DNA from: Desulfuribacillus stibiiarsenatis
Lineage (GTDB): Bacteria > Bacillota > Bacilli > Desulfuribacillales > Desulfuribacillaceae
Assembly: GCF_001742305.1 (NCBI RefSeq)
Contig: NZ_MJAT01000037.1
Location: 1 to 64,000, forward strand
Direction: 5' to 3'
Length of the DNA stretch: 64,000 nucleotides
Under the pieces are notes generated by a model. The model ran no database searches. It worked only from the letters and a program-made list of their open reading frames with translations, and had not been told where the DNA came from. This document shows positions 4,313-51,127 of this stretch, piece by piece. Position 1 is the stretch's first letter. Each line of letters opens with the position of its first letter. Made by a program: the position numbers and the translations under genes.

Positions 4313-4375
4313 TTTATCTCAGCGGCGTTTACTAATATTCCAGTAAAAACTCCATCTGAACTAAGTTTTCTTTAT
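4313..4375 (-). repeat. Internally deleted copy of the ATAAAGAAAACTT repeat family (inverted)
   Basis: Read on the minus strand, this stretch begins ATAAAGAAAACTTAGTTCAG and ends GTAAACGCCGCTGAGATAAA, the two termini of the ~123-bp repeat units at 5012 and 19894, but the middle ~60 bases are missing. It lies between the divergent SOD and SGNH hydrolase genes. Like all other copies it is bounded by ATAAA at both ends. Confidence 0.8.
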
Positions 4376-5011: not shown

Positions 5012-5140
5012 GATAAAGAAAACTTAGTTCAGATGGAGATTTAACTCCACCTGAACTTTAGTTGGCACTTATTTCGAAGCTTGGCGGCACTTATCTCCCA
5101 CTTATAGAAGTGGGAGTATTAGTAAACGCCGCTGAGATAA
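5012..5140 (+). repeat. Full-length ATAAAGAAAACTT repeat element
   Basis: Single complete unit (5012-5135 plus the trailing ATAAA). It starts GATAAAGAAAACTTAG and ends AAACGCCGCTGA. Stem I: AGTTCAG(A)TGGAG with CTCCA(C)CTGAACT. Linker: TAGTTGGCACTTATTTCGAAG. Stem II: CTCCCACTT/AAGTGGGAG, enclosed by GGCGGC/GCCGC. The 3' end abuts the GTG start of the histidine kinase at 5148, and a stop codon lies one codon upstream of that start. Confidence 0.85.
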
Positions 5141-5147
5141 ATAGGGA

Positions 5148-19430: not shown

Positions 19431-19898
19431 ATGTTTACAAATATGCGACGCAAAGAAAAGATGATCAGTGAAAATGACACAAAAGAAATTTTAAACCGTT
19501 GCCAACACGGAACATTAGCCACAATAAGTGTCAATGGGTACCCTTATTCCGTACCATTGAATTATGTGTTCGACCAAAATCGTCTGTATTTTCATTCTGC
19601 TACAACAGGGCATAAGTTAGATAATATTCAACATAATCCGTTGGTCTCTTTTACGGTGATTGACTATTATCAATTGATTCCAGAGAAATTTGATGCACAT
19701 TATGATAGTGTGATTGTCTATGGGAAAGCTAGTATTGTTGAAGAAGTAGAAGGGAAGCGGAAAGCCTTACAATTGTTTATTAAAAAATATTCTCCTAATT
19801 ATGTTGAGCAAGGAAATCATTATATTGAAAGGGCAATGAATCATACAACTGTGATACAAATGCAAGTTGAACATATGACCGGCAAGCACGGTAGATAA
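19431..19898 (+). CDS. Pyridoxamine 5'-phosphate oxidase-like flavoprotein (NimA-type)
   Basis: A 155-residue protein of the split-barrel FMN-binding fold: an N-terminal LNRCQHGTLATISVNGYPYSVPLNYVFD strand pair and FHSATTGHKLDNIQHNPLVSFTVI, the pattern of nitroimidazole-resistance (NimA)-like proteins. Probable FMN- or heme-binding reductase of unknown substrate. The ribosome site is only moderate (GAGGTGA). Its stop codon TAA is the first part of the repeat array that follows, so the repeat inserted or grew exactly at the gene end. Confidence 0.8.
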   Translation: MFTNMRRKEKMISENDTKEILNRCQHGTLATISVNGYPYSVPLNYVFDQNRLYFHSATTGHKLDNIQHNPLVSFTVIDYYQLIPEKFDAHYDSVIVYGKASIVEEVEGKRKALQLFIKKYSPNYVEQGNHYIERAMNHTTVIQMQVEHMTGKHGR

Positions 19899-20015
19899 AG
19901 AAAACTTAGTTCAGATGGAGTTATTACGCTAGCTGAACTCTAGTTGCACTTATTTCGAAGCATGGCGGTACTTAGCTCCTACATATAGAAGTGGAGTACT
20001 AGTAAACGCTGCTGA
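19894..20015 (+). repeat. ATAAAGAAAACTT repeat array, unit 1 (122 bp)
   Basis: Starts GATAAAGAAAACTTAG and ends AACGCTGCTGA. Stem I AGTTCAG/CTGAACT, linker TAGTTGCACTTATTTCGAAG, stem II CTCC(T)AC/GTGGAG, outer stem GCGGT/GCTGC (pairs through wobbles). About 95% identical to unit 2. Confidence 0.9.
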
Positions 20016-20137
20016 GATAAAGAAAACTTAGTTTAGATGGAGTTATTACTCTAGTTGAACTCTAGTTGCACTTATTTCGAAGCATGGCGGTACTTAGCTC
20101 CTACATATAGAAGTGGAGTACTAGTAAACGCCGCTGA
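20016..20137 (+). repeat. ATAAAGAAAACTT repeat array, unit 2 (122 bp)
   Basis: Same layout as unit 1. Stem I reads AGTTTAG/TTGAACT: the base changes leave G-T pairs in place of Watson-Crick pairs, so the fold is kept. Outer stem GCGGT/GCCGC. Confidence 0.9.
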
Positions 20138-20260
20138 GATAAAGAAAACTTAGTTCAGATGGAGTTATTACGCTAGCTGAACTCTAGTTGCACTTATTTC
20201 GAAGCATGGCGGCAGTTATCTCTCACATAAAGAAGTGGGAGTATTAGTAAACGCCGCTGA
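20138..20260 (+). repeat. ATAAAGAAAACTT repeat array, unit 3 (123 bp)
   Basis: Stem I as in unit 1; its 3' half resembles the 5012 copy (outer stem GCGGC/GCCGC, stem II CTCTCAC/GTGGGAG with one wobble). A mosaic of the two subtypes, suggesting recombination or conversion between units. Confidence 0.88.
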
Positions 20261-20305
20261 GATAAAGAAAACTTAGGGAGTATTAGTAAACGCCGCTGAG
20301 ATAAA
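20261..20305 (+). repeat. ATAAAGAAAACTT repeat array, internally deleted unit 4
   Basis: Only the ends remain: GATAAAGAAAACTTAG joined directly to GGAGTATTAGTAAACGCCGC, then TGAGATAAA. Similar end-only derivative as at 4313-4375. The array stops 22 bases before the ilvE ATG. Confidence 0.85.
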
Positions 20306-28767: not shown

Positions 28768-29409
28768 TTATCTTATTGGTGCTGGCATTCCATTGAATGG
28801 ATAATCATATGCGATTTCTTCATCAAACTCAACGTAATCTAGGTATACCATAAGCAGTAAATAACGTCTTCCGGTTTCTGGTTCACTGATGATAATATGG
28901 TCTCGACCAGCAGCTTCGATAATACCTTCAAATACCCTAACATTGTTCTCGCGTCTTCCTTCAAAAGTCATATGCACCCTAGCGAGTTTACCACGGTTTA
29001 GTCGTAGAATATTCTCGATATAAGACATTTCTAAAGGTAATTGGCCAGGAGCTGGTACCTGTGGTAAAGAAGGAGCTGGCATTCCAATCGGCATGGACGG
29101 CATTCCAGGGACGATAGGCATTTGAGGTTGCCCAATCGGTGGCATACCTGGCATTGAAGGCATACCTGGCGTTCCTGGCATTCCTGGCATAGTAGGTATA
29201 CCAGGTGAAAAAGGCATATCAGCAGGGATTTGTGGGCGACCTGGTAATGGCATTGGCATTTGAGGAAATGGAGATGGCATCATTGGATATTGTCTTGGAA
29301 TTTGTACTGGCATACAGTTTTTAGTCTCCGCTACAAACTGATTATTGTCCTTTTGGTTAACACTAGCCTCTTTTGAGGCCATGTAAGGGATATATTGTGG
29401 AACAAACAT
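28768..29409 (-). CDS. gerQ: Spore coat protein GerQ
   Basis: A 213-residue protein. The C-terminal ~90 residues (SYIENILRLNRGKLARVHMTFEG ... IEAAGRDHIIISEPETGRRYLLLMVYLDYVEFDEEI) are the GerQ domain. The N-terminal half is a low-complexity Pro-Met-Gly run (repeats of MPGMPGTPGMPS type, ~45-115), longer than I know from B. subtilis. In Bacillus, GerQ is cross-linked by transglutaminase and is needed to hold CwlJ in the coat for germination with calcium-dipicolinate. It lies directly downstream of cwlJ, as in B. subtilis. Good AGGAGTG ribosome site. Confidence 0.93.
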   Translation of the reverse strand: MFVPQYIPYMASKEASVNQKDNNQFVAETKNCMPVQIPRQYPMMPSPFPQMPMPLPGRPQIPADMPFSPGIPTMPGMPGTPGMPSMPGMPPIGQPQMPIVPGMPSMPIGMPAPSLPQVPAPGQLPLEMSYIENILRLNRGKLARVHMTFEGRRENNVRVFEGIIEAAGRDHIIISEPETGRRYLLLMVYLDYVEFDEEIAYDYPFNGMPAPIR

Positions 29410-40120: not shown

Positions 40121-40215
40121 AATAAAGAAAACTTGGCATTCGCCAAACCTCAGGCGATGAGAATGCCTTAGTTGCACTTATGTACATCAGATAAAATTTA
40201 TAAATTCTGATGTAC
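40121..40215 (+). repeat. Divergent copy of the ATAAAGAAAACTT repeat family
   Basis: Conserved head ATAAAGAAAACTT (40122-40134) and linker TTAGTTGCACTTAT (40168-40181). Both stems have unrelated sequence but still pair: stem I GGCATTCGCC ... GGCG/GAATGCC (40135-40167), stem II GTACATCAG/CTGATGTAC (40182-40215) with ATAAA directly after the 5' arm. This preserves the architecture of the copies at 5012 and 19894. Confidence 0.75.
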
Positions 40216-40216
40216 T

Positions 40217-40244
40217 AAAAAAACCACCCCAAATGGTGGCTTTT
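40217..40244 (-). terminator. Terminator of the HAD phosphatase gene
   Basis: On the minus strand, GCCACC/GGTGGT with a 6-base loop and seven T residues, touching the stop codon of the gene ending at 40243. Confidence 0.85.
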
Positions 40245-50587: not shown

Positions 50588-51127
50588 ATGCAGAAGCATG
50601 ATGTAAACGAGTTTGAAATGGACACTACTTTGCGCCAACAATTAGAACAAACAGAAGAAACACCTCTAAAAGAAACAGAAGTAGATATTAAAATCATAGA
50701 TAAAATTGCTGACGAAGAAATAGTAGAAGAAAATAAAGAAGAAGTTGAGGACGAAGAAGTAATAGAAGAAACAAAAGATGAAATTGCAGACGGAGAAGTA
50801 ACAGAAGAAACAAAAGATGAAGTTGCAGACGAAGAAATAAAAGAAGAAGTTGCTATGGAAGAAACAGTGGAAATAGAAGAGGATGTTCTGAGTCCAGAGG
50901 AAAGAGACAGAATTAAGAAGGCTTTGGAAGATATGTGTAAAATGAAGTCGGAGGAATTTCTTTTATTGGGGATTCAGACAACACCAGAACAGATATGGTC
51001 ATGTGTTTCTCATCAGTATAAGAAGGAATATCCGGAATTACACCAAATCGTAAACGACATCCTATCTTTGAAGACATCAAAATTCATGAACTGGTTAATC
51101 ATCCAGAACCAACGTGGACTTTTATAG
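50588..51127 (+). CDS. comN: ComN-like post-transcriptional regulator with acidic repeat N-terminus
   Basis: A 179-residue protein. The C-terminal ~75 residues (IKKALEDMCKMKSEEFLLLGIQTTPEQIWSCV ... YPELHQIVNDILSLKTSKFMNWL) match the Post_transc_reg family (B. subtilis ComN/YrzD), and the location between spoVB and secD is the same. Ahead of it is a ~100-residue Glu/Asp-rich region made of 13-residue repeats (DEEVIEETKDEIA type), which I do not know from ComN. In B. subtilis ComN acts on comE mRNA. GGGAGG precedes the ATG. Confidence 0.75.
   Translation: MQKHDVNEFEMDTTLRQQLEQTEETPLKETEVDIKIIDKIADEEIVEENKEEVEDEEVIEETKDEIADGEVTEETKDEVADEEIKEEVAMEETVEIEEDVLSPEERDRIKKALEDMCKMKSEEFLLLGIQTTPEQIWSCVSHQYKKEYPELHQIVNDILSLKTSKFMNWLIIQNQRGLL
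50711..50854 (+). repeat. 39-bp in-frame tandem repeats in comN
   Basis: Three full units (50711-50749, 50750-50788, 50789-50827) and a shortened fourth. Each encodes 13 residues, mostly Glu, Asp and Val/Ile. Confidence 0.8.

Follow-up and report, generated by a model that had tools for sequence, protein, structure and literature searches.

Tandem Repeats Upstream of ilvE in Desulfuribacillus stibiiarsenatis: Very Probably a bcr1-like Non-autonomous Mobile Element Amplified in Place

The tandem array between the FMN-binding protein gene and ilvE of D. stibiiarsenatis is, with high probability, a bcr1-like non-autonomous mobile element, of which one copy was amplified in place and partly decayed. 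It is considered a non-autonomous mobile element because its copies are dispersed, intergenic, bounded by ATAAA, and associated with precise empty sites. The evidence points to a gene-less mobile element of the bcr1 kind rather than to a regulator of ilvE. All window coordinates given below refer to the whole stretch of 64,000 nucleotides that was analysed (contig NZ_MJAT01000037.1, positions 1 to 64,000).

Structure of the Array

TRF found a repeat with a period of 122 nucleotides (3.1 copies, 94% matches, score 682) from 19893 to 20276, and the ATAAA unit starts were located at 19895, 20017, and 20139, giving spacings of 122, 122, and 123 nucleotides. Both results confirmed the originally predicted layout of three full units (122, 122, and 123 bp) and a reduced fourth. 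All of the units are present on the + strand. Unit 1, a type-1 element, extends from 19895 to 20021 with both ATAAA ends counted; unit 2 extends from 20017 to 20143, the ATAAA at 20017–20021 being common to units 1 and 2; and unit 3, a mosaic, extends from 20139 to 20266 and likewise has an ATAAA in common with unit 2. Unit 4 (20262–20305) is a 44-bp internally deleted mini form which retained both ends, and its sequence, ATAAAGAAAACTTAGGGAGTATTAGTAAACGCCGCTGAGATAAA, has its last base at 20305. The left ATAAA (19895–19899, + strand) is the insertion target sequence and overlaps a stop codon, as the TAA of the FMN-binding protein gene (ORF 19431–19898) lies inside it. The right ATAAA (20301–20305, + strand) forms the terminus of the array, approximately 25 bp upstream of the ilvE start, so that the gap between the two genes is filled by the array.

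A core of 29 bases occurred three times with no mismatch, against no occurrence expected in shuffled sequences. The identity among the array units was 91–97%, whereas that with any other copy was at most 93%. Unit 3 had been described as a mosaic of the array type and of a copy at 5012; its left half was indeed of the array type, but the right half was nearest to another copy, L072 (93% over the whole unit), and not to the 5012 copy specifically. As copies of the element, the array units have partly decayed. Two other tandem repeats were noted in the window, with periods of 39 bp (50698–50866) and 9/18/27 bp (29140–29202), and both are probably low-complexity coding sequence.

Copies in the Genome of D. 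stibiiarsenatis

About 42 type-1 copies were detectable by blast in the 3.1-Mb genome (50 blast rows; more than 20 full-length). The window contained a single full-length type-1 copy at 5013–5141 (+ strand) and a 63-bp mini form, ATAAAGAAAACTTAGTTCAGATGGAGTTTTTACTGGAATATTAGTAAACGCCGCTGAGATAAA, at 4313–4375 (− strand). With both ends counted, the element ranged from 117 to 130 bp in this genome, the form in the window being 122 bp, and some of the copies were found to contain additional hairpin modules. In an alignment of 24 copies (23 from D. stibiiarsenatis and L044 from the related genus G001), the conservation began at ATAAA and stopped at GAG-ATAAA, and the flanks were unrelated. Most of these copies contained ATAAA at both ends, and a few contained single-base variants of it. 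No terminal inverted repeats were found in the element.

A pattern made from the constant parts matched 44 copies in both orientations, against none for the reversed control pattern. It also exposed a second subfamily, with at least nine copies in the same 3.1-Mb genome, which shares the start ATAAAGAAAACTT and the linker TTAGTTGCACTTAT with type 1 but has different stems. One such copy, with this start, linker, and other stem sequences, was present in the window at 40122–40219 (+ strand); further loci were L331, L339, L342, L345, L352, L357, and L358. The right hairpin of this subfamily terminates at or near ATAAA in several copies. The locus L357 (contig C37 of the same genome, 27917–28160) is a tandem hybrid pair in which the left modules, of subfamily 2, are identical and the right modules, of subfamily 1, differ. 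Unit 3 of the ilvE array is mosaic in the same manner. Judged from the decayed units, the elements of this genome look old.

The genes upstream of the copies were found on the strand of the element in 16 of 20 cases, and 6 of 21 copies overlapped a stop codon. This preference for the strand of the upstream gene and for stop codons is a weak, local trend of D. stibiiarsenatis; the strand preference was not seen in the wider family.

Distribution of the Family

Related elements, mostly of 122–162 bp, were found in 21 of the 145 sampled genera of Bacilli. The model R1, built from A2, matched 21 of 399 Bacilli genomes (16 genera), and R2, built from 32 sequences of the Bacillales form and related ones, matched 39 of 399 genomes (21 of 145 genera). 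Most of the named Bacillales tested contained from 20 to at least 129 R2 copies per genome, and those rich in nearly identical copies included Cerasibacillus terrae, Domibacillus mangrovi, and Natronobacillus. A pattern scan of named genomes yielded at least 120 stretches in more than 20 genera, including Niallia, Sporosarcina, Oceanobacillus, Lysinibacillus, Cytobacillus, Psychrobacillus, Paenibacillus, and Amphibacillus, and it also matched a few Clostridia. The commonest form in the Bacillales was 153–162 bp long, accompanied by mini forms of 52–54 bp and by forms of 200–500 bp with nested hairpins. ATAAA was present at both ends in other genera as well (TTTAT on the opposite strand). None of 63 copies of the wider family was located within a long ORF, and the two orientations were represented 30:33.

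The original prediction was to be refuted if the copies were confined to this place and had arisen by plain local duplication. The family proved to be dispersed through the genome and through other genera, and local duplication survives only in a restricted sense, as the ilvE array itself duplicates one dispersed copy; it does not explain the family. Mere duplication in tandem of ordinary intergenic sequence, without a mobile element, would agree with the array units being most alike to each other, but it is left with practically no probability by the dozens of copies with the same ends that are dispersed through this genome and through other genera.

Several individual copies were also observed. 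The mini form of 52–54 bp recurred across several genera (L101, L112, L129, L133, L142, and L147) and looks like the product of a deletion between the matching GTGGGGGT stretches of two hairpins. Two copies of exactly the D. stibiiarsenatis subtype were present in Clostridia. One (L131, 148.7 bits) lies on a 4987-bp contig of an Alkaliphilus sp. MAG (JAGXRU010000124.1), for which misbinning is possible, and the other (L167, 107.1 bits) is in the isolate Alkaliphilus pronyensis, where its presence is proposed to be due to transfer. A copy in genome G330 (L081) was located between groES and groEL and begins at the groES stop codon. A 64-base stretch (221561–221624) of the enterobacterial plasmid CP079755.1 (Klebsiella grimontii) matched, at 82%, the left hairpin half in the 155-bp form.

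Insertion Sites

Precise empty sites in sister species place the insertion at 5'-ATA/RR. These filled and empty pairs come from another genus or from loci other than the FMN-ilvE region, for which no syntenic match was found in G001. For seven copies of genus g60, the two flanks were joined and used as queries against 25 genomes. The filled site of L082 reads ACA-ATAAAGAG...CGGGATAAA-ACCAGG, and its empty counterpart, L224, reads ACA-ATAAA-ACCAGG with a single ATAAA. The site of L084 was empty in 10 genomes among the matches listed. For L098 and L090, the empty relatives contained ATAGG, whereas in the filled sites the left junction was ATAAA and the right one ATAGG; therefore, the insertion point lies after ATA. 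The left AA is borne by the element at these two sites, and the duplication there is ATA at most. Copies are flanked on both sides by a direct ATAAA or ATA. The site of L005, from the D. stibiiarsenatis family, was empty in the related genus G001 and reads ATAAT. Gain is the favoured direction, as a single genome is filled and many are empty, the states being unpolarised by a tree.

Tandem Growth of the Array

Arrays sharing ATAAA between the units recurred in ten or more further genomes (Lysinibacillus, Ornithinibacillus, Psychrobacillus, Cerasibacillus, Domibacillus, G268, G273, G286, G309, and G371). Neighbouring units were almost always more alike than either was to other copies. In the other arrays, 10 of 11 adjacent pairs were 94–100% identical, and the mean identities of non-adjacent units were 87.5% (G422), 93.8% (G423), and 94.8% (G429); one adjacent value of G422 (0.581) reflects a truncated or misparsed unit. 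Since the units of the ilvE array share private variants, as in the arrays of other genera, one inserted copy appears to have been amplified locally. The tandem arrays are read most simply as copies that were duplicated in place or inserted as dimers.

It is unlikely that the array arose from separate elements that inserted one after another into the ATAAA at the end of earlier copies. Such an origin would suit the facts that this end sequence is a target in its own right, that the units abut exactly and share it, and that the C37 units differ in their right halves. However, adjacent units have private loop and stem variants in common in nearly every array tested (the ilvE array, Cerasibacillus, Psychrobacillus, Domibacillus, and Lysinibacillus), and the left module of the C37 units is identical.

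Under the favoured course of insertion followed by duplication in place, an enzyme encoded elsewhere would recognise the ends of the folded + strand and insert the element at ATA/AA. One copy would have inserted into the ATAAA that overlaps the FMN-binding gene's stop codon and been duplicated head-to-tail in place, the 5-bp ATAAA becoming common to neighbouring units. Unit 3 may then have exchanged modules with another copy, the array units would have decayed, and unit 4 probably arose through internal deletion.

Fold and Covariation

The fold of the family consists of two subterminal hairpins, separated by a conserved linker of the TTAGTTGnACTTAT type whose TTAT(C) is able to form base pairs with the (G)ATAA at the terminus. 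Each unit had been predicted to fold into two stems. The two hairpins were recovered for the family consensus (z of −8.3 in the consensus-like copy L043), but an array unit folded weakly, with z of −2.3 on the + strand and −0.9 on the − strand.

In an alignment of 32 Bacillales sequences, 95.9% of the cells pair, and two-sided changes were present in 15 of 35 pairs. The two-sided cells numbered 75, against a mean of 18.1 in shuffles (none of 500 reached 75) and 8–12 in the controls with slid partners. Most of the 32 sequences were selected with a pattern in which part of the left arm of stem I is fixed. For this reason stem II, with two-sided changes in 8 of the 16 pairs of helix 3, provides the cleaner evidence of covariation. 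Among the 24 copies of the own-genome alignment, covariation was no greater than in shuffles. Covariation across many copies, the proposed check, was therefore obtained for the Bacillales family as a whole but not within the genome, and the latter result agrees with one of the two outcomes that had been named as refuting the prediction. The claim that the fold matters is supported for the family, the array and its own genome showing no covariation beyond shuffles. The change from AGTTCAG/CTGAACT to AGTTTAG/TTGAACT, which had been offered as support for the fold, consists of two one-sided wobbles and is not compensatory.

The pairs on the + strand of the own-genome alignment contained 33 G.T cells versus 6 A.C cells, a bias that was absent at unpaired sites. 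The excess was weaker in the wider alignment (32:16).

A cis-regulatory structured RNA for ilvE, of the leader or riboswitch-like type, would be in agreement with this wobble excess on the + strand, with the covarying fold of the family, and with the position of the array, which fills the intergenic gap almost up to the ilvE start. Nevertheless, such a role for the array is very improbable, as the neighbours of the copies are unrelated, no copy of the 63 lies inside a gene, the family has no orientation bias, sister species have empty sites, and the array units are poor folders. Rfam covariance models gave nothing meaningful for the element at gathering or relaxed thresholds. Regulation of ilvE as the main role is rejected on account of the empty sites, the unrelated neighbours, and the lack of orientation bias in the family. 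Copies lying within transcripts may have an RNA role, the upstream genes in the own genome being mostly on the same strand (16/20). As a mobile element, the family explains structured intergenic repeats of Bacillales which would otherwise be taken for regulatory RNA.

Search for the Mover

No gene-bearing (autonomous) version was found in the 80 loci tested, nor was any gene present between the ends of three truncated copies of the own genome. A Y1 (HUH) single-strand transposase, of either the IS200/IS605 or the RAYT type, would be compatible with a mobile element; we consider it a rather doubtful mover. The subterminal hairpins and the absence of inverted repeats, the insertion beside a fixed short target with no random duplication, the pairing of the linker with the terminus, the asymmetry of the folded strand (G.T vs. 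A.C), and the presence of Y1 genes in 21 of 24 tested genomes are in its favour. However, no PF01797 (Y1 transposase) protein was found in the D. stibiiarsenatis genome and no Y1 gene in G001, G088, or G428, and R2 detected 23 copies in D. stibiiarsenatis, 7 in G088, and 84 in G428 despite this.

The RAYT type seemed promising at first, since many of the hosts encode long Y1 proteins. RAYT-like genes of 177–266 aa were present in many hosts. RAYT as the mobiliser was rejected, since these genes are flanked by other REPs of their own and almost never by the element: 20 RAYT loci gave two weak element matches, one of them to a copy that lies close to an Alkaliphilus RAYT gene. The RAYT-type Y1 genes L293–L311 of Bacillales and Alkaliphilus are flanked by short repeats such as GTGCCTGTCAC, GGGGTCAGACCCC, and GGGACGGTTC, which are separate REP families. 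IS200 TnpA ends were also rejected as a source, as they had no match to the element; the four best IS200 loci were without its linker and right end.

We put forward tentatively, as a possibility clearly less likely than not, that the element belongs to an ancient superfamily of small single-strand-folding elements, including bcr1 and extending from Bacillales into Clostridia, in which an unrecognised enzyme would act at ATA/AA, the pairing of linker and terminus would serve as a built-in guide, and tandem amplification would occur in place. The base-precise empty sites and the genomes with more than 100 copies provide many systems in which the mover can be sought by genome comparison.

Comparison with Known Repeats

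The element resembles MITEs in being short, non-coding, repeated, dispersed, and presumably moved in trans. It differs from them in that terminal inverted repeats are absent, the ends are direct ATAAA, and a parent insertion sequence was not found. With the IS200/IS605-derived and REP/RAYT (BIME) elements it shares subterminal hairpins, a short fixed target, and the lack of inverted repeats, but the host genome is without Y1, and the RAYT genes elsewhere carry unrelated short REPs. BOX, RUP, and EFAR may be likened to the element in their size, their intergenic position, and their modular or structured build. BOX and RUP (Streptococcus) and EFAR (Enterococcus) are named in PMC2267715 and PMC3733652.

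The closest comparison is with bcr1, which is interspersed, mostly intergenic, structured, and gene-less, with a TTTAT motif, tens of copies, and MITE-like mobility; no mover is named for the bcr repeats in the same reports (PMC6542083, PMC3446304, PMC2267715). The element is like bcr1, and also bcr2–bcr3 (group A), in being dispersed, intergenic, structured, and gene-less with TTTAT/ATAAA ends, a likeness drawn from published descriptions. The length of bcr1 is 147–167 bp (PMC2267715), which is similar to that of the Bacillales form (153–162 bp), whereas the D. stibiiarsenatis form is 117–130 bp (122 bp in the window). Occupied and empty sites, by which the mobility of bcr1 is judged, were found at the family level in genus g60 and G001. 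Searches of plasmids gave no match from the B. cereus group, those of plasmids and phages for bcr1 or its relatives gave few or no matches, and an uncontrolled 16S probe matched no B. cereus-group genome among the 399. The bcr elements have been described as confined to the B. cereus group (PMC6542083). However, in our study, a structured family with TTTAT ends was present in more than 20 genera outside that group, and for this reason the element is filed as bcr1-like and not as bcr1. On the strength of these features, it is judged to be an element of the bcr1 kind.
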